The position numbers and the translations under genes were made by a program. 64,000 bases of DNA. It comes from Procambarus clarkii (Eukaryota; Arthropoda; Malacostraca; Decapoda; Cambaridae). The DNA lies in assembly GCF_040958095.1 (NCBI RefSeq), contig NC_091199.1, positions 32,055,041 through 32,119,040 of the forward strand. Reading direction: 5' to 3'. Positions 27,201 to 64,000 of the stretch are shown in pieces; positions within the stretch are counted from its first letter, which is position 1, and every line of letters starts with the position of its first letter. The notes under the pieces were generated by a model. That model did not search any database and was not told where the DNA came from. It saw nothing but the letters and a program-made list of their open reading frames with translations.

Positions 27201-30200
27201 GACAAGGCAGAATGGCCTCAACTTCGCATCAAGGTAATCTATTTATACTCATATTTGTTAAATTGGTGTAACTTGGGGTGGTGTGTGTTGATGCTTGACC
27301 CGTACTGGTTAGCCTAGGGTTACTGTAGGTCTGCAGATAACACGGTCAGCACCATTTTTCTCAATCATAAGTATATTTTACCATGTTCTTTGTTGTTAAA
27401 GTGAATCAAATATTTCTCAGTACAAGCGTGATTATGAGCACAAATTCCTGTTTTAGCAATTATTCACCTTTGGTATTTAAATTGATCAATTATTTTTTAT
27501 CCTTAACGGTTCAGCTTTGTTTCACGCACACCTTTACCTTCTTCCTCGACTTCCGTAGCTTAATTTGTGTTCACATTCAGTTTGAACAGTGTTCTCACAT
27601 ACCTCAATTACATTTTAACATTAGTGAGATGGTAGCCCTCAGGTAATTAGTCTATATAACTCTCTTCACTCTTGATAAAAGAACTACATCATCTGTATCC
27701 ATAATACTTGGTGTATATATATATGTATATAAAATCTACCATCAATTTCTTAAACAAATTTTGAATATGGCAGATAATCTTTTTATAAATACTTTTATGG
27801 GTTCAAATTTGCCTAAATATATAATAATTTTGGTTTATGACAGGTCATTGCTGGAGATGCTTTGATGGGTAAACGAGTAGATTGGGGTGTGAGGGAGAGC
27901 TGGGTGGGCAACTACTTGGCAACTACAAAAGAGAATCCTGAAGCTTCAACCTTTGAGTCTGCCGTCAGAAACATGCGTAACAAAGATGGATTCAGAGAGG
28001 TGAGTGTACGGGCTTCAAGCATACGAAATAGTGGTGGTATAAAACGGAGGGTGTGGTGGTGGGGAGTATTGAACAAGAGAAAGATGGAACAAGAGGAGTG
28101 TGTGGAAGATGGGGAGGGGGGGGTGTGGAAGAGGAGGAGGCAGGCTGGTGTGGAAGAGGAGGAGGGGGGTGTGGAAGAGGAGGAGAAGGAGGGGGTGTGG
28201 AAGAGGAGGAGGAGGGGGTGTGAAAAAGGTAGTGGTGAAAGAAGAGGAGGAGGATGATTGGGGGTGAAAGAGGAGGAGCAGGAGAGGGTGGAGATGTATG
28301 AGAACAAAAAAGTGGTGCACGTGTGTATGATAATATATACAGTACTGTATACATATAAATAAATACAGGATTGTGGGAGACTCTTTATTAAAGAGTCAAT
28401 AGAATGTCTTAAGTAGCATCTTCTGCAGTGCATGTTGGAAGCATGGCTTGTGATAGTGAATGGCTTGGAATAAAGATGGGGATATCAGTATAGTAACGTG
28501 CATTATTGTGGCTCAATCGTTTAATATACAATGTGTGTTTTTTTTTTAGGTGTTGTTCTCCAGCTTGGTGAGAAAGATTAATAAAAAGGACAAGATGGCA
28601 GAGCGTGCAATTATGCTGACAGACAAACAGATTTACAAGTTGCACAGCAAGACTTTTAAGCCTCTCAGATCACCCATTCCCATTTTGGAGGTACAGTATC
28701 AGTGTGTTTTGTGGACAAAGGACAGGAGCTGCCAACAAATTGTTAGAGGAATTGCCAGTCAAGGAATTCAGTTTTAATTAGGCATCGTCTGTATCAATTA
28801 ATACAAATGATGTTTTACTAGGTGAAGAGTTTCGTTAGTAAAACTTGGTTGGTCATGAAGGCTTGTCCTTGACTGATGTTCGTGTTGAACTGATGGCATT
28901 TAATACAGTTGTTGTTGTTTTGTACTGGTGCTCTTTTTAAATAGGTGTATATATATAATGCCTAAATTTAGCCATTAAAATTTTCATCTATTTTGTCAAT
29001 ATGTATCACCACTTTAATTATATCTTTCATTAAATTTGTTTACTAGCTAAAACTTTAACAATTTGTATGAGTTATGAATAAATCTTATAATGCTGGCTCT
29101 GACTTCTTAGTTTGATTTGTATTTTTTAGTAAGAAGCTTAATTCTACTTGGGTTGTTGCCCTGTTCCATTACAGGTGAGCGGAGTGAGCGTCAGTCCTGG
29201 TCAGGACCAGTTGGTGATTATCCACTTAAGAGGCGGCAACGATCTAGTTATCTCCCTCTCATCACAATCCAATGCTAATCGTGTTGGAGAATTAACAGGA
29301 CTCCTCCTCAGACAGTATCAACTGTAAGTGAAAACCATACTGGCCCTTATTAGTTTGAATTGTTTAAACATATTTTCTAGAGGGGTCTTGCCCCTGTTCA
29401 CTTTTTCCCATCACCACTCTTTCCCCCCCCCCCCCTGTCCAACCACTTGAGCTGGACGGTAGAGCGACGGTCTCGGCTTCATGCAGGTCGGCGTTCAATT
29501 CCCGACCGTCCAAGTGGTTGGACACCATTGCCTGCTCCCCCGTCCCATCCCAAATCCTTATCCTGACCCCTTCCAAGTGCTATATAGTTGTAATGGCTTG
29601 GCGCTTTCCCCCCTGATAGTTCCTTCCCTCCTTCCCCTCCCTTCCCCCCCTCCCCCTTAAAATCCCCCATATCTTTCCCTTTTCCCCCTCTTCTTCCCAT
29701 CTCCCCTCTTCCAACTTCTTCCCCTCTCCTTCGCTCTTCACCCTCTCCCACCTTTAAAACTCTATGGAAAACACATCTCTGATCCAATTTCAGACTATGA
29801 AAATTGCAGAGGGGTCACTATGGATGCTGATATTTGTTAAAGGGTGTCACTGGAGCTGACTTCAACTTGCCTAATACACTAATCTATCCCCCATGTGGCA
29901 TCTTGGAAAGTTGAGTGAGGCTAGCTGCAACCTTCTGGCCTCCTACTTTAAATATACTCAGACTAAGACATTCTTTTTCATAGACATTGATTAATTCAAA
30001 TTAAAAATATGTTCATAAATATTTGTAGTTATAATTAATTTACACAAAATTGCAGTACATTTATTTATTTATAACAATTATGATCTCTCTTGAAATCATA
30101 AGTGATTTATATATTTTTTCTATGAAAATATGACTAGCATATTGTTGGGTGTCGATACAAAGATTTGCAATGTTTTTTGTCATGAATGTTTCTCTCCAAC

Positions 30201-44391: not shown

Positions 44392-47300
44392 ATTGGCGAT
44401 ATTTTCGGTATGAAACGTCGTAATTTGAAACTGAAAATAGGTGCAGAGAGTCAGAATTCCGCTCAAAAATCACGCTCAGGAGTCAAATTTCCGACATTTC
44501 GGACATTTTGTAAACTGCGGGGGGGTTTGGGCGAAATATGACCCATCGCCGTTTACAGTAATTGGCATATTTTCGGAATGAAACGTCGTAATTTGAAACT
44601 GAAAATAGGTGCAGAGAGTCAGAATTCGGCTCAAAAATCATGCTCAGGAGTCAAATTTCCGACATTTCAGACATTTTGAAAACTGCAGGGGGGTTTGGCC
44701 AAAATATGACCCATCGCCGTTTACAGTAATTGGCATATTTTCGGTATGAAACGTCGTAATTTGAAGCTGAAAATAGGCACAGATAGTCAGAATACGGCTC
44801 AAAAATCACGCTCAGGAGTCAAATTTCCGACATTTCCGACATTTTGAAAACTGCAGGAGGGTTTGGGCAAAACATGACCCATCGCCGTTTTCAGTAATTG
44901 GCATATTTTCGGTATGAAACGTCGTAATTTGAAACTGAAAATAGGTGCAGAGAGTAAGAATTCGGCTCAAAAATCACGCTCAGGAGTCAAATTTCCGACA
45001 TTTCGGACATTTTGAAAACTGCAGGGGGGTTTGGGCAAAATATGACCCATCGCTGTTTACAGTAATTGGCATATTTTCGGTATGAAACGTCGTAATTTGA
45101 AACTGAAAATAGGCGCAGAGAGTCAGAATACGGCTCAAAAATCACGCTCAGGAGTCAAATTTCCGATATTTCAGACATTTTGAAAACTGCAGGGGGGTTT
45201 GGGCAAAATATGACCCATTGCCGTTTTCAGTAATTGGCATACTTTCGGTATGAAACGTCGTAATTTGAAACTGAAAATAGGCGCAGAGAGTCAAGATTCG
45301 GCTCAAAAATCACGCTCAGGAGTCAAATTTCCGACATTTCAGACATTTTGAAAACTGCAGGAAGGGGGTTTGGGCAAAATATGACCCATCGCCGTTTACA
45401 GTAATTGGCATATTTTCGGTATGAAACGTCGTAATTTGAAACTGAAAATAGGTGCAGAGAGTCAGAATACGGCTCAAAAATCACGCTCACGAGTCAAATT
45501 TCCGACATTTCAGACATTTTGAAAACTGCAGGGGGGTTTGGGCAAAATATGACCCATCGCCGTTTTCAGTAACTGGCATATTTTCGGTATGAAACGTCGT
45601 AATTTGAAACTGAAAATAGGTGCAGAGATTCAGAATTCGGATAAAAAATCACGCTCAGGAGTCAAATTTCCGACATTTCAGACATTTTGAAAACTGCAGG
45701 GGGGTTTGGGCAAAATATGACCCCATCGCCGTTTACAGTAATTGGCATATTTTCGGTATGAAACGTCGTAATTTGAAACTGAAAATAGGCGCAGAGAGTC
45801 AGAATTCGGCTCAAAAGTCACGCTCAGGGGTCAAATTTCCGACTTTCAGACATTTTGAAAACTGCAGGGGGGGGGGGGGGGTTGGGCAAAATATGACCCA
45901 TCGCCGTTTTCAGTAATTGGCATATTTTCGGTATGAAACGTCGTAATTTGAAACTGAAAATAGGTGCAGAGAGTCAGTATTCTGCTCAAAAATCACGCTC
46001 AGGAGTCAAATTTCCGACATTTCGGACATTTTGAAAACTGCAGGGGGGTTTGGGCAAAATATGACCCATCCCCGTTTACAGTAATTGGCATATTTTCGGT
46101 ATGAAACGTCGTAATTTGAAACTGAAAATAGGCTCAGAGAGTCAGAATACGGCTCAAAAATCACGCTCAGGAGTCAAATTTCCGACGTTTCAGACATTTT
46201 GAAAACTGCAGGGGGGTTTGGGCAAAATATGACCCATCGCCGTTTTCAGTAATTGGCATTTTTTCGGTATGAAACGTAGTAATTTGAAACTGAAAATAGG
46301 TGCAGAGAGTCAGAATTCGGCTCAAAAATCATGCTCAGGAGTCAAATTTCCGACATTTCAGACATTTTGAAAACTGCAGGGGGGTTTGGGCAAAATATGA
46401 CCCATCGCCGTTTACAGTAATTGGCATATTTTCGGTATGAAACGTCGTAATTTGAAACTGAAAATAGGCGCAGAGAGTCAGAATTCGGCTCAAAAATCAC
46501 CCTCAGGAGTCAAATTTCCGACATTTCAGACATTTTGAAAACTGCAGGAGGGTTTGGGCAAAATATGACCCATCGCCGTTTTCAGTAATTGGCATATTTT
46601 CGGTATGAAACGTCGTAATTTGAAACTGAAAGTAGGTGCAGAGAGTCAGTATTCTGCTCAAAAATCACGCTCAGGAGTCAAATTTCCGACATTTCGGACA
46701 TTTTGAAAACTGCAGGGGGGTTTGGGCAAAATATGACCCATCCCCGTTTACAGTAATTGGCATATTTTCGGTATGAAACGTCGTAATTTGAAACTGAAAA
46801 AAGGCTCAGAGAGTCAGAATACGGCTCAAAAATCACGCTCAGGAGTCAAATTTCCGACGTTTCAGACATTTTGAAAACTGCAGGGGGGTTTGGGCAAAAT
46901 ATGACCCATCGCCGTTTTCAGTAATTGGCATTTTTTCGGTATGAAACGTAGTAATTTGAAACTGAAAATAGGTGCAGAGAGTCAGAATTCGGCTCAAAAA
47001 TCATGCTCAGGAGTCAAATTTCCGACATTTCAGACATTTTGAAAACTGCAGGGGGGTTTGGGCAAAATATGACCCATCGCCGTTTTCAGTAATTGGCATA
47101 TTTTCGGTATGAAACGTCGTAATTTGAAACTGAAAATAGGTGCAGAGAGTCAGTATTCTGCTCAAAAATCACGCTCAGGAGTCAAATTTCCGACATTTCG
47201 GACATTTTGAAAACTGCAGGGGGGTTTGGGCAAAATATGACCCATCCCCGTTTACAGTAATTGGCATATTTTCGGTATGAAACGTCGTAATTTGAAACTG

Positions 47301-50147
47301 AAAATAGGCTCAGAGAGTCAGAATACGGCTCAAAAATCACGCTCAGGAGTCAAATTTCCGACGTTTCAGACATTTTGAAAACTGCAGGAAGGGGGTTTGG
47401 GCAAAATATGACCCATCGCCGTTTACAGTAATTGGCATTTTTTCGGTATGAAACGTAGTAATTTGAAACTGAAAATAGGTGCAGAGAGTCAGAATTCGGC
47501 TCAAAAATCATGCTCAGGAGTCAAATTTCCGACATTTCAGACATTATGAAAACTGCAGGGGGGTTTGGGCAAAATATGACCCATCGCCGTTTACAGTAAT
47601 TGGCATATTTTCGGTATGAAACGTCGTAATTTGAAACTGAAAATAGGCGCAGAGAGTCAGAATTCGGGTCAAAAATCACCCTCAGGAGTCAAATTTCCGA
47701 CATTTCAGACATTTTGAAAACTGCAGGAGGGTTTGGGCAAAATATGACCCATCGCCGTTTTCAGTAATTGGCATATTTTCGGTATGAAACGTCGTAATTT
47801 GAAACTGAAAATAGGTGCAGAGAGTCAGAATTCGGATAAAAAATCACGCTCAGGAGTCAAATTACCGACATTTCAGACATTTTGAAAACTGCAGGGGGGT
47901 TTGGGCAAAATATGACCCATCGCTGTTTACAGTAATTGGCATATTTTCGGTATGAAACGTCGTAATTTGAAACTGAAAATAGGCGCAGAGAGTCAGAATA
48001 CGGCTCAAAAATCACGCTCAGGAGTCAAATTTCCGACATTTCAGACATTTTGAAAACTGCAGGGGGGTTTGGGCAAAATATGACCCATCGCCGTTTACAG
48101 TAATTGGTATATTTTCAGTATGAAACGTCGTAATTTGAAACTGAAAATAGGCGCAGAGAGTCAGGATTCGGCTCAAAAATCACGCTCAGGAGTCAAATTT
48201 CCGACATTTCGGACATTTTGAAAACTGCAGGGGTGGGGGGGGCGGGGTTGGGCAAAATATGACCCATCGCCGTTTACAGTAATATGCATATTTTTGGTAT
48301 GAAACGTCGTAATTTGAAACTGAAAATAGGCGCAGAGAGTCAGAATACGGCTCCAAAATCATGCTCACGAGTCAAATTTCCGAAATTTCAGACATTTTGA
48401 AAACTAAAGGGGGGGGGGTTGGGCAAAATATGACCCATTGCCGTTTTCAGTAATTGGCATATTTTCGGTATGAAACGTCGTAATTTGAAACTGAAAATAG
48501 GTGCAGAGAGTCAGAATACGGCTGAAAAATCACGCTCAGGAGTCAAATTTCCGACATTTCAGACATTTTGAAAACTGCAGGGGGGTTTGGGCAAAATATG
48601 ACCCATCGCCGTTTTCAGTAACTGGCATATTTTCGGTATGAAACGTCGTAATTTGAAACTGAAAATAGGCTCAGAGTGTCAGAATAAGGCTCAAAAATCA
48701 CGCTCAGGAGTCAAATTTCCGACGTTTCAGACATTTTGAAAACTGCAGGGGGGTTTGGGCAAAATATGACCCATCGCCGTTTTCAGTAATTGGCATATTT
48801 TCGGTATGAAAGGTCGTAATTTGAAACTGAAAATAGGTGAAGAGAGTCTGAATTCGGCTCAAAAATCACGCTCAGAAGTCAAATTTCCGACATTTCAGAC
48901 ATTTTGAAAACTGCAGGGGGGTTTGGGCAAAATATGACCCATCGCAGTTTTCAGTAATTGGCATATTTTCGGTATAAAAAGTCGTAATTTGAAACTGAAA
49001 ATAGGTGCAGAGAGTCCGAATTCGGATAAAAAATCACACTCAGGAGTCAAATTTCCGACATTTCAGACATTTTGAAAACTGCAGGGGGGTTTGGGCAAAA
49101 TATGACCCATCGCCGTTTTCAGTAATTGGCATATTTTCGGTATGAAACGTCGTAATTTGAAACTGAAAATAGGTGCAGAGAGTCAGAATTCGGCTCAAAA
49201 ATCACGCTCAGGAGTCAAATTTCCGACATTTCAGACATTTTGAAAACTGCAGGGGCGTTAGGGCAAAATATGACCCATCGCCGTTAACAGTAATTGGCCT
49301 ATTTTCGGTATGAAACGTCGTAATTTGAAACTAAAAAGAGGCGCCGAGAGTCAGAATTCGGCTCAAAAATCATGCTCAGGAGTCAAATTTCCGACATTTC
49401 AGACATTTTGAAAACTGCAGGGGGGTTTGGGCAAAATATGACCCATCGCTGTTTTCAGTAATTGGCATATTTTCGGTATAAAAAGTCGTAATTTGAAACT
49501 GAAAATAGGTGCAGAGAGTCAGAATTCGGCTCAAAACTCATGCTCAGGAGTCAAATTTCCGACATTTCAGACATTTTAAAAACTGCAGGGGGGTTTGGGC
49601 AAAATATGACCCATCGCAGTTTTCAGTAATTGGCATATTTTCGGTATAAAAAGTCGTAATTTGAAACTGAAAAAAAGGTGCAGAGAGTCAGAATTCGGAT
49701 AAAAAAACACGCTCAGGAGTCAAATTTCCGACATTTCAGACATTTTGAAAACTGCAGGGGGGTTTGGGCAAAATATGAGCCATCGCCGTTTTCAGTAATT
49801 GGCATATTTTAGGTATGAAACGTCGTAATTTGAAACTGAAAATAGGTGCATAGTGTCAGAATTCGGCTCAAAAATCATGCTCAGGAGTCAAATTTCCGAC
49901 ATTTCAGACATTTTAAAAACTGCAGGGGGGTTTGGGGAAAATATGACCCATCGCCGTTTTCAGTAATTGGCATATTTTCGGTATGAAACGTCGTAATTTG
50001 AAACTGAAAATAGGTGCAGAGAGTCAGAATTCGGCTCAAAAATCATGCTCAGGAGTCAAATTTCCGACATTTCAGACGTTTTGAAAACTGCAGGGGGGTT
50101 TGGGCAAAATATGACCCATCGCCGTTTTCAGTAATTGGCATTTTTCA
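44392..50147. repeat. Satellite A: 168-bp monomer tandem array (about 34 copies)
   Basis: The start of ggcatattttcggtatgaaa recurs at 44564, 44732, 44900 and 45068, exactly 168 bp apart. Conserved parts include aaacgtcgtaatttgaaact and gtcaaatttccgacatttc. Length varies mainly in the G-run after actgcag. Open frames here are not genes. Confidence 0.98.
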
Positions 50148-53100
50148 TTAATTGGTCGATTTTTGCCGCTAGCGGCCAAAAACCGCGCGATTTTCGCTGC
50201 TAGCGACCAAAAACCGCGCGATTTTTGCCACTAGTGGCCAAAAATCTGGCGATTTTTGCTGCTAGCGGCGAAAATCACCCGATTTTTTCCCTCCAGCGGC
50301 GAAATTCGCCATATTTTTACCCGCTAGCGGCCAAAAATCGCACGGTTTTTGGTCGCTAGCAGCGAAAATCGCGCGGTTTTTGGCCGCTAGCGGCAAAAAT
50401 CGACCGACTTTCGCCGCTAGCGTCGAAAATAGGGGCTATTTTCGCCGTTAGCGCCCAAAAACGAGCGATTTTCGCCGTTAGTGGGCAAAAATCGCGCGAT
50501 TTTCGCAGCTAGTGGCCAAAAAAGGGGCTATTTTCGCCGCTAGCGGCCAAAAAACGTGCGAATTTCGGCGCTACTGGCCAAAAATCGCGCGATTTTTGCC
50601 GGTAGCGGGCAAAAATCGGGCGAATTTCGCCGCTGGAGGGAAAAAATCGGGCGATTTTCGCCGCTAGCGGCCAAAATCGCTCGATTTTTGGCCGCTAGAT
50701 GCGAAAATCGCGCTGTTTCTGGCCGCTAGCGGCGAAAATCGCTAGATTTTTGGCCGCTTGCGGCGAAATTCGCACGATTTTTGGCCGCTAGTGGCAAAAA
50801 TCGAGCAATTTTTGGCCTTTACCTGCGAAAATCGCGCGATTTATGGCAGCCAGCTGCGAAAATCGCGCGATTTTTGGCCGCTAGCGGCGAAAATAGCCCC
50901 TTATTTGGCCGATAGCGGCCAAAAATCGTACGATTTTCGCATCTGGCGGGCAAAAATCACATGGTTTTTGGCCGCTAGCGGCGAAAATCGCGCTGTTTTC
51001 ACCGCGAGCGGCCAAAAATCGTGCGAATTTCGCTGCTAGCGGCCAAAAATCGCGTGATTTTCGCGGCTAGTGGCCAAAAACCATGCGATTTTCGCAGCTG
51101 GCGGGCAAAAATCGCGCGATTTTCGCCGCTATTGGCCAAAAACCGCGCGATTTTCGCCGCTAGCGGCCAAAAACCGTGCAATTTTCGCCACTAGCGGCCA
51201 AAAATCGCGCGATTTTCGCCGCTATCGGCCAAAAACCGCGTGATTTTCAAAGGTAGCCTCCAAAAATCGGGCGATTTTTGCCGCTAACGGCCGAAAACCG
51301 CGCTATTTTCGACGCTAGCGGCCAGAAACCATGCGATTTTTGCAGCTGGCGGGCAAATATCGCGCGAATTTCGCCGCTACCTACCAAAAATCGACCGATT
51401 TTCGCAGCTAGCGGCCAAAAAAGGGTCTATTTTCGCCGCTAGCGGCCAAAAATGGGGCAATTTTCGCCGCTAGCGGCCAAAAATGGGGCAATTTTCGCCG
51501 CTAGCGGCTAAAAATCGTGCAAATTTTGCCGCTAGCGGCCAAAAATCGTGCGAATTTCGCCACTAGCGGCCAAAAATCGCGCGATTTTCGCCGCTAGCGG
51601 CCAGAAACTATTCGATTTTTGCAGCTTTCGGGCAAAAATAGCGCGATTTTCGCCGCTACCGGCCAAAAACCGCGCGATTTTCGCCGCTAGCGGCCAAAAA
51701 CCATGTGATTTTCGCAGCTGGCGGGCAAAAATCGCGATTTTCACCGCTACCAGCCAAAAATAGCGCGATTTTCGCCGCTAGCGGCCAAAAACCGTGCGAT
51801 TTTCGCCGCTAGCGGCCAAAAATCGGGCGATTTTTGCCGCTAACGGCCGAAAACAGCGCTATTTTCGACGCTAGCGGCCAGAAACCATGCGATTTTTGCA
51901 GCTGGCGGGCAAAAATCCTGCGAATTTCGCCGCTACCTGCCAAAAACCGCGCGGATTTCGCCGCTAGCGGCCAAAAACCATAAGATTTTCGCAGCTAGCG
52001 GGCAAAAATCGCGTGATTTTCGCCGTTACCGGCCATAAACCGCGTGATTTTTGCCGCTAGCGGCCAAAAACCGTGCGATTTTCACAGCTGGCGGGCAAAA
52101 ATCGCGTGATTTTCGCCGCTACCGGCCAAAAACCGCGTGATTTTCGCAGCTAGCGGCCAAAAACCGTGCGATTTTCACAGCTGGCGGGCAAAAATCGCGC
52201 GATTTAAGCCGCTAGCGGCCAAAAATCGTGCAAATTTCGCCGCTAGCGGCCAAAAATCGTGCGAATTTCGCCGCTAGCGGCCAAAAAATGCGCGATTTTC
52301 GCCGCTAGCGGCCAGAAACTATGCGATTTTTGCAGCTGGCGGGCAAAAATAGCGCGATTTTCGCAGCTACCGGCCAAAAACCGCGCGATTTTCGCCGCTA
52401 GCGGCCAAAAACCGCGCGATTTTCGCCGCTAGCGGCCAAAAACCATGCGATTTTCGCAGCTGGCTGGCAAAAATTGCGATTTTCGCTGCTACCGGCCAAA
52501 AATAGCGTGATTTTCGCCGCTAGCGGCCAAAAACCGTGCGATTTTAGCCGCTAGCAGCCAAAAATCGGGCGATTTTTGCCGCTAACGGCCGATAACCGCG
52601 CTATTTTCGACGCTAGCGGCCAGAAACCATGCGATTTTTGCAGCTGGCGGGCAAAAATCGTGCGAATTTCGCCGCTACTTGCCAAAAATCGTCCGATTTT
52701 CGCCGCTAACGGCCGAAAAAGGGGTTATTTTCGCTGCTAGCGGCCAAAAATGGGGCGATTTTCGCCGGTAGCGGCCAAAAATCGTGCGAATTTCGCCGCT
52801 AGCGGTCAAAAAATGCGCGATTTTCACAGCTGGCGGCCAGAAACTATGCGATTTTTGCAGCTGGCGGGCAAAAATAGCGCGATTTTCGCCGCTACCGGCC
52901 AAAAACCGCGCGTTTTTCGCCGCTAGCGTCCAAAAACCATGCGATTTTTGCAGCTGGCAGGCAAAAATCGCGATTTTCGCCGCTACCGGCCAAAAATAGC
53001 GCGATTTTCGCCGCTAGCGGCCAAAAACCGTGCGGTTTTCGCCGCTAGCGACCAAAAATCGGGTGATTTTTGCCGCTAACGGCCAAAAACCGCGCTATTT

Positions 53101-54510
53101 TCGAAGCTAGCGGCCAGAAACCATGCGATTTTTGCAGGTGGCGGGCAAAAAATCACGCGAATTTTGCCGCTACCTGCCAAAAACCGCTCGATTTTCGCCG
53201 CTAGCGGCCAAAAACCATGCGATTTCCGCAGCTGGCGGGCAAAAATCGCGTGATTTTCGCCGCTACCGGCCAAAAACCGCATGATTTTCGCCGGTAGCGG
53301 CCAAAAACCGTGCGATTTTTACAGCTGGCGGGCAAAAATCGTGCGATTTACGCCGCTACCGGCCAAAAACCGCGCGTTTTTCGCCGCTAGCGGCCAAACA
53401 CCATGCGATTTTCGCAGCTGGCGGGCAAAAATCGCGATTTTCGCCGCTACCGGCCAAAAATAGCGCGATTTTCGTCGATAGCAGCTAAAAACTGTGAGAT
53501 TTTCGCCGCTAGCGGCCAAAAATCGTGCGACTTTGTCCGCTAGCGGCCAAAAATCGTGCGATTTTCGCCTCTAGCGGCCAGAAACTATGCGATATTTGCA
53601 GCTTGCGGGCAAAAATAGCGCGATTTTCGCCGCTAGCGGCCAAAAACCGTGCGAATTTCGCCGCTAGCGGCCAAAAATCGCGCGATTTTCGCCGCTAGCG
53701 CCCAGAAACTATGCGATTTTTACAGCTGGCGGGCAAAAATCGCGCGAATTTCGCTGCTACCTGCCAAAAACCGCGCGATTTTCGCCGCTAGCGGCCACAA
53801 GCCATGCGATTTTCGCAGCTGGCGGGCTAAAATCGCGTGATTTTCGCCGCTACCGGCCAAAAACTGGGTGATTGTCGCCGCTAGCGGCCAAAAACCGTGC
53901 GATTTTCACAGCTGGCGGGCAAAAATCGCGCGATTTAAGCCGCTACCGGCCAAAAATCTGCGATTTAAGCCGCTAGCGGCCAAAAATCGTGCAAATTTCG
54001 CCGCTAGCGGCCACAAATGGGGCGATTTTCGCCGCTAGCGGCCAAAAATCGTGCAAATTTCGCCGCTATTGGCCAAAAACCGTGCGATTTTCGCCGCTAT
54101 CGGCCAAAAATCGGCGATTTTTGCCGCTAACGGCCAAAAACCGCGCTATTTTCGACGCTAGCGGCCAGAAACCATGCGATTTTCGCAGCTGGCGGGCAAA
54201 AATCGCGCGAATTTCGCCGCTACTTGCCAAAAATCGACCGATTTTCGCCGCTAGCGGCCAGAAAAGGGGCTATTTTCGCCGCTAGCGGCCAAAAATGGGG
54301 CGATTTTCGCCGCTAGCGGCCAAAAACCGTGCGATTTTCGCAGCTAGCGGGCAAAAATCGCGCGATTTTCGCCGCTAGCAACCAAAAATCGGGCATTTTT
54401 TGCCGCTAACGGCCGAATACCGCGCTATTTTCGCCGCTAGCGGCCAAAAATCGGACGATTTTCGCCGCTAGCAGCCAAAAATCGCCCGATTTTTGACCGC
54501 TAGCGGCAAA
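50148..54510. repeat. Satellite B: about 31-bp doubly palindromic array (about 140 units)
   Basis: Units alternate two self-complementary cores, GCCGCTAGCGGC and AAATCGCGCGATTT. Unit starts at 51191 and 51222 are 31 bp apart. The flanks mark orientation (cgCCGCTAGCGGcc versus ggCCGCTAGCGGcg), and it changes along the array. Open frames on both strands follow from the symmetry. Confidence 0.97.
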
Positions 54511-54519
54511 CTAATCTGC

Positions 54520-54912
54520 AAACTACTTTACAAAGTAGCGAAAGTAGCCCAATTTTGGGCTACAATGTAGCGAATGTAGCCCAATTTTCGAGTTCAAAGT
54601 AGCCAAATTTTGGGCTACAAAGTAGCAAAAGTAGCTCAATTTTAGGCTACAAAGTAGCCCAATTTCGGGCTACAAAGTAGCGAAAGTAGCCCAATTTTGC
54701 GAAATTTTTGCGCAAATTTAGCGAAAGTAGCCCAATTTTGCGAAATTTTTGCGCAAATTTAGCGAAAGTAGCCCAATTTTGGCCTACAAAGTAGCCCAAT
54801 TTTGGGCTACAAACTAGCGAAAGTAGCCCAATTTTGGGCTACAAAGTAGCGAAGTAGCCCAATTTTGGGCTACAAAGTAGCGAAAGTAGCCCAATTTTGG
54901 GCTACAAAGTAG
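54520..54912. repeat. Satellite C: about 32-bp palindromic array
   Basis: About twelve units of aaagtagcgaaagtagccca plus attttgggctac; the core gtagcccaattttgggctac is almost a perfect palindrome. Confidence 0.95.
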
Positions 54913-54914
54913 CT

Positions 54915-55715
54915 ATATATGATTATACACTGAGGCGCTGGAAAAGGAAGCTGGCAGCTCTAGGGTCTCTTGTTGTTTCAATTAGCCTAGAACCCAGTTC
55001 CTTAAAAAAAAAACTGGTGGCACTCTTATCCCCAGTCGCCGTGTGTCTCAGAAGCAATAGGGACAAAATTTTAATGGTGATCCAGTTCTCTGTAATTACA
55101 GGACTTGGCTGATTTCCTTTGAGTGGCAGCGCCACCTGGTTGTGCAACACTGAAGTTAATGTAGGTGTTAGCCCTGGTTGTTAGGCACCTGTAGTCCCAT
55201 ACCAACTGCTTGCTATTCTTTCACTTTACTGTTCTCAGCTGTGACAAATTTCACTACATAAAAAAGGAACAAGTGAGGAAGATATACCTCTTACTCCTCC
55301 TCCTTCCTGTACAACTAACTACACACAAAACCAATCTCTTGCAGCAGGATAAAGTCAAAACACAATCAAAGCTCAAATGTAATATATATTTTGTACTTTA
55401 GTTAAGACTTATACCTAAAATATGTATGACTTTATTAAGCACTTTAAACCATTTTTCTTAAAGAAAAAAATATATATCCTAGATCCTGGCAGCAATAAAG
55501 TTGAAGTAATACATAGAGAGAGAGAGAGTGGTAATACAATTATAATTTAAACACATGTAAGCATGTGTTTAGGCTTACAGTAAAAAAAATAGTTGCAATA
55601 AGTATGTCTTGAATTGAACGTCAGTCTTAATATTTGTAGTAATGATTGAAGTAATCACAACAGTTTTCAAATTATTGGTAAAATTATTGGTTTGTACTAC
55701 AAAAGAAGTCCCTGT
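54915..55715. other. No gene recognised
   Basis: AT-rich DNA with a short GA run at 55516-55529. The minus strand of 54920-55150 resembles repeat DNA, but I cannot place it. Confidence 0.4.
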
Positions 55716-55719
55716 ACTT

Positions 55720-56208
55720 GTCCTCCAACCTGGAGGGGTACTGTACGTGCTCCTCCAGGCTGGAGGGGTACTGTACGTGCTCCTCCGGGCTGGAGGGGTA
55801 CCTGTACGTGCTCCTCCGGGCTGGAGGGGTACCTGTACGTGCTCCTCCAGGCTTTAGGAGTACCTGCACGTGCTCCTCCAGGCTGGAGGGGTACTGTACG
55901 TGCTCCTCCGGGCTGGACGGGTACCTGCACGTGCTCCTCCAGGCTGGAGGGGTACTGTACGTGCTCCTCCGGGCTGGAGGGGTACCTGTACGTGCTCCTC
56001 CAGGCTGGAGGGGTACCTGCACGTGCTCCTCCAGGCTGGAGGGGTACCTGCACGTGCTCCTCCAGGCTGGAGGGGTACCTGCACGTGCTCCTCCAGGCTG
56101 GAGGGGTACCTGCACGTGCTCCTCCAGGCTGGAGGGGTACCTGCACGTGCTCCTCCAGGCTGGAGGGGTACTGTACGTGCTCCTCCAGCCTTGAGGAGTA
56201 CCTGTACT
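55720..56208. repeat. 30/31-bp minisatellite
   Basis: About sixteen copies of gtacctgcacgtgctcctcc plus aggctggaggg. ctgtac/cctgcac variants give 30- or 31-bp units. Each unit holds cctccag...ctggagg and cacgtg, so all six frames stay open. Confidence 0.96.
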
Positions 56209-56209
56209 G

Positions 56210-57265
56210 CAACTAATAGAAACTCATTTCACCAGTGGAAATTACTAAAAGTAGGTACAGAATAATGAAATATCACTTATGATCAATCACAGCAATCATA
56301 TAGAGGAGAGGGAAGGATACAGGGAATGAAGGAGGGAGATAGAGAGGGAGCGAGGGAGGAAGGGGAAGAAAGGAGAGGTGGGGAAAAAGTAATAGAACCA
56401 GGAGGCGGATTGAAATGCCTTATCTAGCATAATAGCCTTCAATATAGCTCTATTTTCCTATAGGAAAATAAGCACTGAAGATCTTGCAGGTATAGAATGT
56501 TCATCTTTCTTCACTCACACTACTACTTTATAATATAAAATATAATGTATATATAATATACTCATACATGCTTTTTACAAAAATAGTTTAGGCGAAACTT
56601 ACAATTTCTCAAAGTTACGAAAGCTTTCTCGGTAAAACTGTCTCATTTCACCAAATTTGGCTGGCGAGGATTTGATGAAAACGAGCACTTGCCTTCCCAT
56701 ATGCGGGGATCTGACTGCTGAAAGCTCTCAATGTTTTCAAACTAATGGTACAACAGCTGGGTGTATTAAAATGGAAGTCAGGCAACTGCTTAACACCGGG
56801 ACGCAGTTTTGGGCAGCTTGGAGCACAAGACCGCAACTTTTCAATATATTTCTTCAACTTCTCTACATTTTGACAGTATTCGTTATGAGGGAGTTTCTAT
56901 GCGATGCCGCTTGATACACTCTTAAATTATGGGTTTTTGAGGTGATGATAATATACGTAATTGAGAGAGAGAGAGAGAGAGAGAAGGAGAGAGAGCGCAC
57001 TGAGACTAGCAGAGGTTGAGTAGATCTATATCGCCAGTATAGTTAAAAAACACATTTAAATGCTCATCGAGCCGGCGTATGTGTAGGATCATCTGGTGAT
57101 CTTCTTCATCTGGTGTTCGAGAGGAGAATCCATGAATTGGAGCCGATTTGGTTGATCAGAAAGTTCGGCATTAAGCTTGACGTTTAACAGCGATTGGCTG
57201 ACAGGTTTACGGGCTGACGGATGATTGACGTCTGATGTCTGGAGTGTCAATCATTCCATTGGTCT
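56210..57265. other. 3' flank of the cysteine-module gene, no other gene recognised
   Basis: GA-rich stretches at 56300-56390 and 56963-56995. 56600-56900 has an 85-codon open frame without recognisable content. No clear AATAAA on the minus strand close to the gene's stop was noticed. Confidence 0.4.
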
Positions 57266-57267
57266 GG

Positions 57268-57305
57268 CTAGTAGTTCACAGGGTTCTTCTCGAAGTAGAA
57301 GGGAT
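57268..57305 (-). CDS. Cysteine-module gene, exon 6: PFYFEK C-terminus and stop
   Basis: Acceptor tttgacag; a split Asn then PFYFEKNPVNY and TAG at 57270-57268. PFYFE mirrors PFSFE at the start of exon 3. Confidence 0.7.
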
Positions 57306-60300
57306 CTGTCAAACAAGAACGCAAGTTGAACACATTTTAATACTAAAAAATATTCCCGTTATAATCGCCAATTTATAACTTATCACCATCCGTTCTCCTG
57401 GCCAAATGTTCACTCACTATGAAGCCGCTTCATAGAGGAACAATCATTAAATTAGTATAGAACCGAACAAACACCTTTTAGGTCTTTCAACACTGAAAAA
57501 TCCTAAGAGATTCAACGATTAAAACTCGGGGTCATCATTTGCAATACTTAACCAACAAATACTAATACAATTAAACATTAAATTCTAAATTAATGGCCAA
57601 GTATAAGAGAGAAAAGTTGAGATGTTGTTCAACTACTGTAACCTTGACCCCCATCCCCCCACAAGCACTGACCTACCACTTTAACAAGACCAACACCTCC
57701 TCGTCCCTATAATCCACGAGCACAGACTCCTGGAATCCTGGAGCCGGTCGGCCGAGCGGACAGCACGCTGGACTTGTGATCCTGTGGTCCTGGGTTCGAT
57801 CCCAGGCGCCGGCGAGAAACAATGGTCAGAGTTTCTTTCACCCTATGCCCCTGTTACCTAGCAGTAAAATAGGTACCTGGGTGTTAGTCAGCTGTCACGG
57901 GCTGCTTCCTGGGGTTGGAGGCCTGGTCGAGGACCGGGCCGCGGGGACACTAAAAAAAGCCCCGAAATCATCTCAAGATAACCTATCTCAAGACTGCAGC
58001 AAGGCCTGCCCCGTCCTGCCCTCTACAAGGGGGGTCGACTTACTGTTGCTGTGAGGGAGGTTGGCGTAGGCGCAGCACTGGCTGTACACGTCGCAGCAGC
58101 GCCTCTGCTTGTCAGCTCCCAGCAGACTACAGTACTTGGCCTTGCAGTGCATCGCGTCCACCTTCCTGATGCTGTCGGTAGAGACGAGAAATGAGGTCAT
58201 GTTAAGCGAGTCTACGTGAGGTGATTAAGTGACGTGAGGGGGAGGTGGGGTGATATGTTGATGTGATGCGATATGTTGTGAGGTGATGTTAGAATATGTA
58301 ATCTGTTTGGCAGCCGGATGCTGTATTTGGAAACTTTCCTTATCAAGACTACTCATATCCCAGTCGATAGAGCTACAGCCTCACGCACGTGGGGTCCACG
58401 TTCGAGACCCGCACAACCCAGGTGAAAGCCCCCTACAGGAGGTTAAAACCCCCCCACAGGAGATTTAAACCCCCCCACAGGAGGTTAAAACCCCCCCACA
58501 GGAGATTTAAACCCCCCACAGGAGGTTAAAACCCCCCCACAGGAGGTTAAAACCCCCCCACAGGAAGTTAAAACCCCCCCACAGGAGGTCAAAACCCCCC
58601 CCACAGGAGGTCAAAACCCCCCACAGGAGGTTAAAACCCCCCACAGGAGGTTAAAACCCCCCACAGGAGGTTAAAACCCCCCACAGGAGGTTAAAACCCC
58701 CCACAGGAGGTTAAAACCCCCCACAGGAGGTTAAAGCCCCCTACAAGAGTTTCAAGACCCCCACAGGAGGTTAAAAAAAAAAAACCCACGAGGTTAAAGC
58801 CCCCTACAGGAGTTTCAAGACCCCCACAGGAGGTTAAAGATCCCTACAGGAGGTTAAAGCCCCCTACAGGAGTTTCAAGACCCCCACAGGAGGTTAACCC
58901 CCCCCCACAGGAGGTTAAAGCCCCCTACAGGAGGTTAAAGCCCCCCACAGGAGGTCAAAACCCCCCCACAGGAGGTCAAAACCCCCCCCCACAGGAGGTC
59001 AAAACCCCCCCACAGGAGGTCAAAACCCCCCCACAGGAGGTCAAAACCCCCCACAGGAGGTCAAAACCCCCCCCACAGGAGGTTAAAACCCCCCCACAGG
59101 AGGTCAAAACCCCCCCACAGGAGGTCAAAACCCTCCACAGGAGGTTAAAACCCCCCACAGGAGGTCAAACCCCCCCCCACAGGAGGTCAAAAACCCCCCC
59201 ACAGGAGGTCAAAACCCCCCCACAGGAGGTCAAAACCCCCCACAGGAGGTCAAAACCCCCCACAGGAGGTCAAAACCCCCCCCACAGGAGGTCAAAACCC
59301 CCCCACAGGAGGTTAAAACCCCCCACAGGAGGTCAAACCCCCCCCCCCCCCCCACAGGAGGTCAAAACCCCCCACAGGAGGTCAAAACCCCCCACAGGAG
59401 GTCAAAACCCCCCACAGGAGGTTAAAGCTCCCTACAGGAGGCACAACAGACGATGACCTCTCACGCACACGTCATTGTAGGTCCTCGGAGGTTGTTTAGA
59501 AGCGCCGGACGGTGGTCGAGGCTTGACCAGTGAGTAGCTAATGGGCGGCGGGCGCCTGGCTTGGGGCCTGGCTTGGGGCCTGGCTGTGGGCCTGGCTGTG
59601 GGCCTGGCTTGGGGCCTGGCTGTGGGCCTGGCTTGGGGCCTGGCTTGGGGCCTGGCTTGGGGCCTGGCTTGGGGCCTGGCTTGGGGCCTTGGGAGAGCTC
59701 CGGGTTGGGGCTGGTCCGCCTGAATGCGTGATGTCGAGGCTTCCTGGAGCGGCAAAGACCTGGAGGCCAGAAATGAAAGTTAGAATTAACGAACTTGGGT
59801 TGGATATATATACATGCGCCCACAGCAGACACTCCTCCCTCCCCCCTCCCCCCCTTCCCCTGTAGGTGTCTGCTGGGACACCAGAGTTAAGCAGATACAG
59901 GTAAACTCTCACCTTATTCCCAAGTGAACTTTATGATATACTGATCTAAATCAAAATATGGGATCAGTTAGTCTACAGGCGCACATGAGAATATTTTCTC
60001 CAACAACGAAATCTTGTTAACAAGAACGTGGTAACTGTTAATGAGACACCTTGATGGGGGATTTCTTGCTACTGCTGAAGGCTTTTGTGACGCCTCTGGA
60101 GGTTTTATCGGCACTAAGAACAGCTCTTGAGTATTTGACAGTGGTTCCTCGAAGGAGAACGGACCTGAAGATTAAAGAACAAAAATTATATTATAAATGT
60201 TAAAGGCATTATTTATATATTTTAAATAACTTAACCAAAGATAATAATAAATCATAATGTTTTCTATTTGCGACTGTTCTCTGACTTACCTGCTTTTTAA

Positions 60301-61745
60301 TTAATACTAATATGACATGTTAAATTGTGCTGATATGTAAGTACAAATGTGACTTACCACGTCGATAGTCAATATTCAGCATGAAAATTCTGTACGTTTA
60401 ATTTTCTAAACAAAAAAAGTTAAGAACATAAGACTGAAGGTAAATGCAGAAGGCCTATTGGCCCATACCAGGTAGTTCCTCTTTATCATTCCTTTATTCC
60501 TACCTTATCTCATTCATATACATGTCCAACCTACTCTTGAAACAATCAAGGAATCTTACTTTTATTATGTTACGCGGCAATTTGTTCCACACAAATCAAC
60601 AACCCTGTTACCGAAGGCCTTAGTTAAGTGAGGGTGTTGGACTGGCTGAGGTGAGTGAATGGACCACGTCTTGACCGGAATCTTCGAACGTAATTAAGTT
60701 CATATAAGTACAAATGTGACTTATCCCGCTGCTAGTAAGTTAGTATTAAGTTAAACCTTGCGAGCCATGAGGATGAAGCTGATTTACGCGTGCGCAGGAG
60801 TCGAACTCTTCTCTCCGAGATAAAAAAAAAACCAGACAGACAGGTTGGCAGACAGGGAGATTAACGGACAGACACACATACATGTTGCATATATTCATGT
60901 AAATATATGCACGCTGTTGCACGGTCACCTGCATCAGTGGGCGAGAAGAGCTGAAATACCTGCCACGAGGCACGTAATACCCATCCCAGGAAGCTGATAT
61001 ATTAGTCAAGATATACTATTGATGCATTGGTCATGACATACTTTCCATGCAAATGCGATATAGCCCAAAAGGGCTTATATGCATCCTTTAAAGTGCTAAT
61101 ATATCCACCATAGGGCCGTTATACTCACCGTGGTGCCGATACACTCTCAGTGGAGCTTGGCATACCCGCCTTGGGACTGATATACTCACCCTGGGGGCTG
61201 ACATACTCGACGTAGGCGCAGCAGCGGCGGTAGGTCACACAACAGCCCTTCCAGCGGGCAGGGGGCATGATCCCACAGAGTGAGGCGCGGCAGAACTCCT
61301 CTCCCCAGCTGTCCACAGCTCTGAGTACAAAGAAATTTGCGTGAGAGGGCATAGGAATGTATGATAAAACAGGAACAGGCATGACAAGGCATGGGAGGGC
61401 GTAGGAAGAACACGAGATGGTGTGAGAGAACATGAGAAAGCATGGTAAGAAAATAGAAAGGGTGGAAAGAGGGTATGAGAGGGGTGAAAGAGGGTTAATG
61501 GCATATAGAAGGAGAGAGAGAGAAAGGTAGTCGAGTAATCGACCGGATGACGCAAAGATTATTTTAATGGGAAAATGTTTTTTTTTTTAAATTGCCAATT
61601 TAAATGTGGATATTTCTCTGACACTTTATCATCAATTTTTTTGAACATTATACCAAACATTGTCTCATGTCTGTTCTCCTTTCTTCTCCTCTCCTCTGTC
61701 CTCTCTGTCTGTCTCTCTCTCTCTCCTTCCCCCTTTCTCTAACAC

Positions 61746-61778
<33 letters not shown>

Positions 61779-61879
61779 GCGCGGATGGGATACGAGGTCA
61801 AGGAGCTGAGATACGAGGACAAGAAGGTGATATACGTGGAGAAGCAGCTGGAACATAAGGTCAAGGAACTGGGATACCA

Positions 61880-61953
<74 letters not shown>

Positions 61954-62401
61954 AGGGGCCTCGTAGCCTGGTGGATAGCGCGCAGGACTCTTAATTCTGT
62001 GGCGTGGGTTCGATTCCCGCACGAGGCAGAAACAAATGGGCAAAGTTTCTTTCACCCTAAGTGCCCCTGTTACCTAGCAGTAAATAGGTACCTGGGAGTT
62101 AGTCAGCTGTCACGGGCTGCTTCCTGGGGTGTGTGTGTGTGGTGTGGGTAAAAAAAAAAAAAAAAAAGGTAGTAAACAGTTGAGAGGCTGGGCCGAAAGA
62201 GCAAAGCTCAACCCCCGCAAAAACACAACTAGTAAACACACACACACACAGTTCCTTTACTCATTGAGTAGCGGCAAGACTCACCAGGCGAGCTCAGGCA
62301 CTCACCATTAACCCTCACGAGAGCTCAGACACTCACCTTGCTGGCTGTAGGACCTGGAGGGAGGTGGTGATGGTGAGGATGGTGCCTATGACGCTACGCA
62401 T
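57268..62401 (-). CDS. Predicted secreted protein with two six-cysteine modules and an RPQA-repeat linker (6 exons, 255 aa)
   Basis: Exons in transcript order: 62401-62337, 61320-61190, 60164-60050, 59759-59469, 58171-58044, 57305-57268; lengths 65+131+115+291+128+38 = 768 nt, exactly 256 codons with TAG. Every intron is GT-AG and every phase fits. Residues 1-21 are a likely signal peptide. C32-C56 and C210-C234 both follow C-x4-C-x10-CC-x5-CC-AY. Each module is followed, after a phase-1 intron, by PF-x-FE. Residues 67-200 are a cysteine-free Pro/Ser-rich linker with eleven RPQA/RPTA units. All twelve cysteines are in the modules, so a disulphide-rich extracellular protein is likely. I do not recognise the family; a cuticle, immune or signalling role is only possible. 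The model rests on phase logic, one weak donor (gtgtct) and one unusual donor (gtgcgt). Confidence 0.75.
57740..57990 (+). mobile_element. Full-length main-family SINE, intron 5 of the cysteine-module gene
   Basis: tRNA-like head ggagccggtcggccgagcgg to cctgggttcgatcccaggcg, body tacctagcagtaaaataggt, tail ggcctggtcgaggaccgggc and cgaaatcatctcaagataac. Confidence 0.85.
58044..58171 (-). CDS. Cysteine-module gene, exon 5: second six-cysteine module
   Basis: Acceptor accgacag, donor gtaagt; phase 2 in, phase 1 out, as in exon 2. Encodes IRKVDAMH, C210-KAKY-C215, ten residues, CC, DVYSQ, CC, AY. The cysteine spacing is identical to that of exon 2. Confidence 0.78.
58345..58430 (+). mobile_element. 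Second-family SINE copy
   Basis: cagtcgatagagctacagcc, ccacgttcgagacccg (B box), cccaggtgaaag. Its tail runs straight into the minisatellite that follows. Confidence 0.55.
58425..59445. repeat. About 21-bp minisatellite in intron 4 of the cysteine-module gene
   Basis: About 48 copies of ccccccacaggaggttaaaa, with ttaaa and tcaaa variants and length changes in the C-run. No unique spacers, so it is not a CRISPR array. Confidence 0.97.
59469..59759 (-). CDS. Cysteine-module gene, exon 4: proline-rich repeat linker
   Basis: Acceptor cctccag. Encodes SLPLQEASTSRIQADQPQPG, eleven RPQA/RPTA units, then RRPPPISYSLVKPRPPSG and RTYNDV. The next exon needs a phase-2 end, which only the donor GT|gtgcgt at 59468 provides; the frame itself stays open to a TAG at 59432. 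Confidence 0.68.
59560..59692 (-). repeat. 12-bp coding minisatellite (RPQA/RPTA)
   Basis: Eleven in-frame units of cgccccaagcc-type (plus strand ggcctggcttgg). The period is a multiple of three, so copy-number change keeps frame. Confidence 0.92.
60050..60164 (-). CDS. Cysteine-module gene, exon 3: PFSFEE tail and start of linker
   Basis: Acceptor atcttcag; a split Gly is followed by PFSFEEPLSNTQELF and a Pro/Ser-rich stretch. Phase 1 in, phase 2 out. The donor gtgtct is weak, but the phase and sequence character support it. Confidence 0.68.
60420..60615 (-). mobile_element. LINE-derived repeat, minus orientation, intron 2 of the cysteine-module gene
   Basis: aagaacataagactgaaggt, gcagaaggcctattggccca, ttacgcggcaatttgttcca are hallmarks of a dispersed decapod LINE end. 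Confidence 0.65.
61190..61320 (-). CDS. Cysteine-module gene, exon 2: first six-cysteine module
   Basis: Starts in phase 2 after tactcag and ends in phase 1 at gtgagt. Encodes C32-RASL-C37, ten residues, CC, VTYRR, CC, AY. 131 nt, one codon longer than the homologous exon 5. Confidence 0.78.
61747..61777. repeat. (CA)n microsatellite
   Basis: About 15 CA units. Confidence 0.95.
61780..61882 (+). repeat. 21-bp minisatellite (gggatacgaggtcaaggagct)
   Basis: About five imperfect units; the same family occurs at 62997-63137 and, inverted, at 63600-63690. Confidence 0.75.
61882..61951. repeat. (CA)n microsatellite
   Basis: About 34 CA units lying directly before a SINE. Confidence 0.97.
61953..62130 (+). 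mobile_element. Main-family SINE with a tRNA-Lys-like head, intron 1 of the cysteine-module gene
   Basis: ggggcctcgtagcctggtgg to gggttcgattcccgcacgag folds like a tRNA, with loop ctcttaa (CUU anticodon). The body tacctagcagtaaataggta follows; the 3' tail is replaced by a GT run, so it is a SINE and not a tRNA gene. Confidence 0.8.
62337..62401 (-). CDS. Cysteine-module gene, exon 1: signal peptide
   Basis: Start ATG at 62401-62399 in context acaccATG, then MRSVIGTILTITTSLQVLQP, a short N-terminus with one Arg followed by a hydrophobic run. Donor gtgagt, phase 2. An upstream atcatcacag could be the acceptor of a 5' UTR intron. Confidence 0.7.
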
Positions 62402-62409
62402 GGTGTCTG

Positions 62410-62870
62410 CTGTGATGATAGTGAGAGAAGTGGTTAGTGAAGGTGACCTAAGGGGAGTACATGTATATACATACACACAGTTCCTCTAGTATATACATAC
62501 ATGTATGTACTAGAGGAAGTTCACGTTTATGTAAAACTAAATTTTGTTTATAAAATTATATGTTTTCCATTTACGTAAAATAATTAAACTCATAACGACT
62601 ATTAAAACTATATAATTATCTAAAAAAAATCTCCGTGCAATGATTAGTGTTGTGGTTTACTCACTATTACGTCGTATGGATTAATCAGTGTGGATTAATA
62701 TAACTTTCTGGAGTACTGGCGTATACCCACCGGCTTATGGTTAAATCCACATTGTTTCTCTTAAATCCACACAGGGGAGAGAGATTATCCTTATTATCCA
62801 ACAAGAGGTTATTGACTCCAGACCCCAACACTGAGTGAGTGACTCCAGAGTGGTTTAGAGACGTTCAGGT
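62410..62870. other. Upstream region of the cysteine-module gene
   Basis: AT-rich and without a gene. catacacacagttcctctag and the following tagaggaa form a small inverted repeat at about 62472-62520. No TATA box can be assigned with confidence. Confidence 0.35.
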
Positions 62871-62875
62871 TACCT

Positions 62876-62948
62876 TACCTTGAGGTGCTTCCGGGGCTTA
62901 GCGTCCCCGCGGCCCGGTCGTCGACCAGGCCTCCTTGGCCTGGTTAAC
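62876..62948 (-). mobile_element. SINE tail fragment, minus orientation
   Basis: ccttgaggtgcttccggggc and gtccccgcggcccggtcgtc, the reversed main-family tail. Confidence 0.7.
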
Positions 62949-62996
62949 GTAATTATCAGAACAAAACTATTTGACCAGAACAGCCGTACTTACGAT

Positions 62997-63137
62997 ACAT
63001 GGAAGGGATACGAGGACCAGGTGCTGGGATACGAGGTCAAGGCGGTAGGATACGAGGACAAGGCGGTAGGATACGAGGTCAAGAAGGTGATATACGTGGA
63101 CAAGGCGGTGGGATACGAGAACAAGGACCTGGGATAA
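62997..63137 (+). repeat. 21-bp minisatellite
   Basis: About seven copies of gggatacgaggtcaaggcggt. Confidence 0.85.
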
Positions 63138-63418
63138 GGAACTAGGTCACAAGGACGGTGTGAAGAAACTATGCCCAATCTTCAGGGATTGAACACCAAC
63201 TCTTCATGAAGGGCGGCTGTCGCTGTACCCAACTGTCCAAATGAATGGAGTTTGGCGGAAACGAACGCACCTGATTTGGCAGAGATGCATACAAGAGAAG
63301 ATGGTCGAGAGGAAGAACACGCAGCCAGGTAACGTGCGGACGAGTGAGTTGCGGACGAGCGAGTGTATTGCGGACGAGTGAGGGAGCAGCAGTATACACA
63401 ACACACCGGATATCCACA

Positions 63419-63420
<2 letters not shown>

Positions 63421-63487
<67 letters not shown>
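63421..63487. repeat. (TG)n microsatellite
   Basis: About 33 TG units. Confidence 0.98.
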
Positions 63488-63489
<2 letters not shown>

Positions 63490-63599
63490 TTACTATTTGT
63501 GTCTGCAGAATCGAGCTATTATCTCTTGGACTCTCGATACAAGCCTAACGTGTATATGTATTTACTGTGTATATGTATATATGTATACACTGATCTTTT

Positions 63600-63690
63600 G
63601 TCCAGGTATCCAGTTCCTTCACACCGTTCTTGTGACCTAGTTCCTTGTCCTCGTATTCCAGGTCCTTGTCCTCGTATCCCAGGTCCTGTC
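63600..63690 (-). repeat. 21-bp minisatellite, inverted copy
   Basis: ccttgtcctcgtatcccagg-type units, the reverse of the 62997 array. Confidence 0.7.
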
Positions 63691-64000
63691 GGGGACTGGC
63701 TGCCTGTCCCCCCGAAAAATTATTATTACGTAACGTGTATTCATCAAGTATTTCCACGACCACTTACGAAACATTTAGATCCTTTTTTTCGCCCCAAGCA
63801 CTAAGAGGTTGAAGACATTTTGCTAAGAAAAAATGCATTGGCTATATATTGGGTTGCATTTCGCATCAGTTGTGTATGTACTCTTCAATATGGACTCGCC
63901 TAAATGTGCTTCTAGAGTCGTGCGATAGCTCCTGAGCCCAGTGTGTGTCACATCTGGCCGGATACACAAAAGTGTTCTAGCTGCGCTAATCTCTGGAGCA

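Follow-up and report, generated by a model that had tools for sequence, protein, structure and literature searches.

We describe here a six-exon gene on the minus strand of a 64,000-nt stretch of the Procambarus clarkii genome (contig C50, positions 32055041-32119040; hereafter the window), whose product carries two six-cysteine modules of identical spacing, C-x4-C-x10-CC-x5-CC, joined by a cationic arm rich in Pro and Arg. The gene is real, apparently intact, and decapod. The two halves of its product go back to an ancestral exon pair, one exon encoding a six-cysteine module and the next opening with the motif PF-x-FE, which was duplicated within the gene and now has a Pro/Arg repeat exon in between. 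By analogy with antimicrobial peptides of shrimp and crabs, the product is best read as a secreted, two-headed, cationic host-defence protein, a tentative reading that we hold at just short of even confidence.

The start codon and a signal-peptide-like stretch lie in exon 1 (62337..62401), which ends in phase 2 at the donor GTGAGT. Exon 2 (61190..61320; phase 2 in, phase 1 out) encodes module 1, and exon 3 (60050..60164) starts with GPFSFE and continues into a Pro-rich stretch. Exon 4 (59469..59759; symmetric 2-2 phase) is the cationic Pro/Arg linker with its (ARPQ/T) repeats, and within it a 12-bp tandem repeat of 11.3 copies (59554..59689, minus strand) codes for the RPQA/RPTA units; the number of copies is likely to vary between animals. 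Module 2 is encoded by exon 5 (58044..58171; again phase 2 in, phase 1 out), and exon 6 (57268..57305) reads NPFYFEKNPVNY followed by the stop codon, comprising PFYFE and the C-terminal end. The order along the protein is therefore a hydrophobic start, module 1, PFSFE with the Pro-rich stretch, the Pro/Arg repeat arm, module 2 and PFYFE. A preliminary description, made from the letters alone, had proposed six minus-strand exons with matching phases and 255 codons, with the two modules joined by a Pro-rich linker, and this model holds: the spliced frame of 768 nt stays open for 255 codons before its stop, each of the five introns has GT-AG borders, the exons end in phases 2, 1, 2, 2, 1 and 0, and the linker exon is 23.7% Pro. 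When two possible ends of exon 2 were assembled with two possible ends of exon 4, only one of the four combinations was open, namely the one already proposed. Scored against the donor consensus, the donors of exons 1 to 5 match 9, 8, 7, 6 and 7 of nine positions, and since the exon 4 donor is the lowest of the five, the end of this exon is the least certain. Of the 387 GT sites that the gene contains, 53 score at least 6, and this donor is one of the weak points of the model. Because exon 4 is symmetric, in-frame skipping from exon 3 to exon 5 (158 codons) would be possible, and because the phases of the two module exons agree (2 at the start, 1 at the end), the combinations 1-5-6 (76 codons) and 1-2-6 (77 codons) are in frame as well; such exon-skipped and single-head isoforms are predictions by phase arithmetic. 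A second gene starting in exon 4 was considered and set aside, as no Met precedes the repeat in the open stretch that holds this exon (59432-59779), though an unseen exon further upstream might supply one.

All 12 cysteines of the protein fall in the two modules, as the earlier description had it, at residues 32, 37, 48, 49, 55 and 56 (module 1) and 210, 215, 226, 227, 233 and 234 (module 2), and the CC-AY ends and PF-x-FE tails that it pointed out do follow each module at equal distance, exons 3 and 6 both opening with PF-x-FE. Across its six frames the window contains the full cysteine pattern at two places only, the two modules of this gene, and 60 first-order Markov windows did not contain it at all; a looser six-cysteine pattern retrieved the same two modules only. 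For CC-x5-CC by itself the count is two in the window and eight summed over the 60 Markov windows, and PF-x-FE is present three times in six frames, twice in the gene and once at 6244. A gap-free alignment of the two units extends over 45 residues, from the first cysteine to the tail, and contains 15 identities, nine of them at non-cysteine positions. None of 20,000 shuffles that held the cysteines fixed scored as high as this alignment, while 0.12% did so for the 22-residue core. Duplication of the exon pair follows from the units aligning better than all shuffles, together with the matching phases of the module exons and the matching PF-x-FE exons behind them.

The genome searched comprises 4,027,284,227 bases in 2,308 contigs, and in it we found one full copy of the gene and a partial duplicate of exons 5 and 6 on contig C83. 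There the second copy of exon 5 (C83:8892021-8892146) has 96.9% DNA identity and that of exon 6 100%. Positions 54883-58576 of the window match C83 piecewise at 89.6-96.1%, and the similarity ends inside a 20-bp minisatellite of 49 copies in intron 4 (58420..59441). An insert resembling a short interspersed nuclear element (SINE) in intron 5 (57729..57990) is absent from that place in the C83 copy, and its positions 57740-57982 have a 92% match elsewhere on C83. No second copy of exon 1 (query 62280-62450), exon 2, exon 3 or the non-repeat end of exon 4 (query 59469-59552) was found in the genome, nor were exons 1-4 found in 240 kb near the C83 copy, 6,000 bases of which are N. Because such a search scores only a small number of candidates, it may have missed distant paralogues. 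A weak match to module 1 on contig C93 (E-value 3.5) was discarded, its translation having no cysteine module.

The cysteine frame closely resembles that of the penaeidins and hyastatins, given as C1-(X2-3)-C2-(X9-10)-C3-C4-(X5)-C5-C6 in PMC4954822. Two of the three spacings agree and the first loop, x4, lies one residue outside. This loop is the variable one, since it has 1, 2, 2, 3 and 3 residues in the five published domains that we compared (PEN1 and MjPen-II from PMC11678341, 1xv3, 1ueo, and SpHyastatin from PMC4954822), and the x1 of PEN1 likewise falls outside the published array. The residue at the centre of CC-x5-CC is aromatic in each module, as it is in four of the five published domains, and a Pro/Arg segment adjoins the cysteine domain in the crayfish gene and in the penaeidin/hyastatin peptides alike. 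The earlier statement that the spacing matches no named family thus stands as far as formal membership goes (see below), but not for the spacing itself, which is a single residue off.

Among known systems, the penaeidins of penaeid shrimp (PF05927; PEN1-5, with structures 1xv3 and 1ueo) share the six cysteines, the CC-x5-CC with a preceding x10, and a cationic, Pro/Arg-rich partner region. They differ in having a C1-C2 loop of x1-3 and one module, whereas the crayfish protein has x4 and two, places a module ahead of its Pro-rich part, carries PF-x-FE tails and shows no residue similarity between the cysteines. Hyastatin of Hyas araneus and SpHyastatin of Scylla paramamosain are multi-domain peptides of non-penaeid decapods, tested as antimicrobial, in which a Pro-rich part precedes a C-terminal cysteine domain of penaeidin type (PMC4954822, PMC2866484), but they have one such domain and no second head, with spacings of x3, x9 and x5 in SpHyastatin. 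BigPEN of Litopenaeus vannamei (269 aa, PMC7048182) is a large penaeidin with a repeat region and a similar total size, yet its repeat region is followed by one penaeidin domain, in contrast to the order module, Pro-rich repeat, module seen here. MjPen-II of Marsupenaeus japonicus, reported to agglutinate bacteria (PMC11678341), also combines a penaeidin with a low-complexity region, though this is Ser-rich and the cysteine domain single. The rule for penaeidins and hyastatins, an N-terminal Pro/Arg part and one C-terminal domain, is broken by module 1-linker-module 2, and the second half of the protein taken alone conforms to it. The preliminary description had called the protein undescribed, and indeed we found no description of a two-headed penaeidin-like protein among the titles, abstract openings and passages covered by a search of open-licence papers; a review of crayfish immunity (PMC8155518) contains neither the word penaeidin nor the word hyastatin.

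Cleavage is predicted near ARA/VDSW, and the chain after ARA has a computed mass of 26.0 kDa (232 residues), an isoelectric point (pI) of 9.85 and a charge of about +20, to which the exon 4 linker (pI 12.0, +14.5) and module 2 with its tail (+3.9) contribute. SpHyastatin requires both its Pro/Arg region and its cysteine domain for full activity and binds chitin, lipopolysaccharide and lipoteichoic acid (PMC4954822); hyastatin and the penaeidins also bind chitin, which in the penaeidins is ascribed to the cysteine domain (PMC2866484). The reading as a defence protein rests on this analogy, that a Pro/Arg region and a cysteine domain are jointly antimicrobial in hyastatin, SpHyastatin and the penaeidins. 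The crayfish protein would then be secreted and probably expressed in haemocytes. Its Pro/Arg arm would bind microbial surfaces or chitin, as in penaeidins and hyastatins, and the two heads, each presumably with three disulphides as in those peptides, would make for a compact molecule that resists proteases and would offer further binding faces, so that one molecule might bridge or agglutinate microbes.

Several results weigh against this reading. Module 1 is barely charged (+0.7, computed). The N-terminus is moderately rather than strongly hydrophobic (best 11-residue Kyte-Doolittle mean 1.65), with an AxA-like site near. No kappa-B-like site was found on either strand in the 1.6 kb that separate exon 1 from the end of the window. 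The cysteine domain of SpHyastatin alone did not bind chitin and was weakly active, on only three of the listed microbes, at 25-37 uM (PMC4954822), and the heads therefore need not be binding faces. In Pfam the sole weak match of module 2 to Penaeidin scores 13.2 bits for the exon alone, 12.7 with the tail and 11.9 when trimmed, all below the gathering cut-off of 25 bits, and neither module 1 nor the whole chain matched this family at E-values up to 10, the limit to which matches were considered. The residues between the cysteines resemble those of the five published domains no better than shuffles do (module 1, p 0.18; module 2, p 0.17), whereas each of the five passes the same test when left out in turn (p 0 to 0.028, with Ala standing in for the one gap in SpHyastatin when that domain was tested). 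The C83 copy, finally, diverges in its exons by 4 of 166 bases (2.4%), much as it does by 2.8% in intron 5 and by 2.2% in the 3' flank (aligned with 292 gap columns), and the codons of its three synonymous changes are neighbours.

These last figures also bear on whether the gene works at all. Over 30.2 synonymous sites the coding part of the C83 copy has three changes, and over 131.8 nonsynonymous sites it has one, a Leu-to-Val replacement (binomial P 0.022 for as low a nonsynonymous count), and support for selection is weak, because the exons diverge like the intron and flank and the synonymous changes are adjacent. One could accordingly take the whole for a decayed gene, or for open stretches that happen to line up among repeats, and the repeat-rich surroundings, the weak exon 4 donor and a partial copy without exons 1-4 within 240 kb would all suit this. 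We consider it improbable, given the agreement between modules, phases and tails, the lack of any match to the motif in the Markov windows, the absence of a frame break, and the fact that three of the four differences in the duplicate are synonymous.

With regard to descent, one may ask whether the protein is a true but very diverged member of the penaeidin/hyastatin group, in which the ancestral domain was doubled and the C1-C2 loop lengthened, a scenario compatible with the defence reading. In its favour are the frame itself (x4/x10/x5 beside published values of x1-x3/x9-10/x5), the aromatic residue at the centre of the loop and the Pro/Arg-rich partner segment. The silence of Pfam is no great obstacle here: PEN1 scores 63.3 bits and its cysteine domain 31.6, MjPen-II 33.5, but its cysteine domain 21.4, already below the cut-off, while the SpHyastatin domain alone matches no Pfam family and arasin-1 none either. 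Pfam is thus blind to an accepted relative, and a miss there says little; the filters of HMMER drop most weak matches, and a 98-residue piece holding module 2 and part of the linker had no Pfam match. Nor can the weak match of module 2 be taken as homology, a use of it that the shuffle control led us to reject. Four of 40 shuffles of module 2 that kept the cysteine frame matched Penaeidin, versus none of 40 with an altered frame (one-sided Fisher about 0.06), and the best of the former reached an E-value of 0.0004, stronger than the 0.16 of the real module. Small as these counts are, frame-keeping shuffles reproduce the match, which evidently reports the cysteine frame and not the residues in between; the next family in that set (40 shuffles and the real module) was DUF2650, with three of 41 members. 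An AlphaFold2 model of module 2, for which module 1 was the sole alignment partner, has helices at 3-8, 11-16 and 19-29, the last of them lying between C2 and the CC pairs and running into the loop, at low confidence (mean predicted local distance difference test 64.7, predicted template modelling score 0.39); in the penaeidin domain a helix is held by three disulphides (PMC2866484, PMC11678341). With no residue similarity beyond the cysteines, we regard such descent as possible but doubtful. Membership in the penaeidins is formally not supported, and we would say that the protein may work like a penaeidin, not that it is one.

Searches for other relatives were largely negative. The Penaeidin family had no hit above its cut-off in the crayfish genome and five weak places, whose translations lack the six-cysteine module; module 2 itself was not listed by this search, so equally diverged relatives would be missed. 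The SpHyastatin domain gave 17 equal weak matches (E-value 6.59) on 17 contigs, a repeat-like pattern, the loci of which were not read. Among PDB sequences, module 2 alone and a two-module profile found only unrelated chains (E-value 0.74 or worse), and the SpHyastatin domain one plant peptide (E-value 9.3). The module pattern occurred in 40 stretches of viral and 21 of prokaryote contigs, none of them confirmed, and exon 5 had no match in phage DNA. The whole chain had only two weak low-complexity matches (E-values 0.43 and 0.56) in NCBIfam, a library built for bacteria and archaea. A crustin was dismissed, there being no WAP domain among the Pfam matches at E-values up to 10, from which HMMER filters drop most weak ones, and so was a granulin half-domain: neither module matched Granulin, the only such match coming from one of 40 shuffles, and the order of CC pairs in granulins differs from that of the modules.

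The main functional rival of the defence reading is a structural protein that binds chitin or another matrix, in the cuticle, a gastrolith, the egg or the gut lining; descent from penaeidins is a separate question under either. A pair of similar heads carried by a repetitive, Pro-rich rod would suit the cross-linking of such a matrix, chitin is bound by penaeidins and SpHyastatin (PMC2866484, PMC4954822), the upstream 1.6 kb without a kappa-B-like site fits as well, and in our judgement PF-x-FE tails and a nearly neutral first module are atypical of a pure antimicrobial peptide. The strongly positive linker (pI 12.0) speaks against it, as do the Pfam matches left by the HMMER filters, which drop most weak ones, since they include no chitin-binding or cuticle family, and we think this alternative unlikely, if worth keeping in view. 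Small cysteine modules are also common in cytokine-, hormone- and protease-inhibitor-like proteins, and the phases would permit single-module products, so that a secreted signal or inhibitor with two cysteine heads may be considered. However, no inhibitor or hormone family appears among the Pfam matches or those in NCBIfam, with its bacterial and archaeal scope, and a basic repeat arm would be unusual for such proteins; we give this alternative little credence.

Returning to a role in defence, a more specific proposal, which we offer as conjecture and rate on the doubtful side, is that the gene represents a family of two-headed modules that descended separately from the penaeidins, reached nearly the same frame, and serves crayfish in defence by bridging or agglutinating. 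Its origin would lie in a module plus tail that was duplicated around a fast-changing Pro/Arg exon, with single-head products possible.

Elsewhere in the window an unconventional (class I-like) myosin gene lies in pieces on the plus strand (10648-28774), with six open stretches that match Myosin_head and a Myosin_TH1 match at 28550-28774, and between its exons are transposase pieces (CENP-B_N, DDE_1) at 14112-14303 and 17942-18397, also on the plus strand. Two large tandem arrays are adjacent at 44392-54913 (34 copies of 168 bp and 141 copies of 31 bp), the 31-bp array also adjoining the C83 copy. In a scan of 54500-64000 a tRNA-like match (Rfam tRNA, 42.7 bits) was found in intron 1 (61958-62028, plus strand), probably a tRNA-derived SINE. 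On C83, about 100 kb from the partial copy (about 8788500-8798300), there are several open stretches with CC repeats (CCPDxxHCC), which from the pattern we take to be granulin-like.

The arrangement of two heads and a Pro/Arg arm was not seen in the literature searched, while its build is like that of shrimp and crab antimicrobial peptides, from which its function is predicted. Penaeidins are stated to be restricted to penaeid shrimp (PMC7048182, PMC11678341). The exon layout of the crayfish gene yields simple predictions of isoforms, and its two-headed, near-penaeidin frame would either bring a further lineage of decapods into the range of such defence peptides, with an architecture that is new, or mean that the same frame arose twice.

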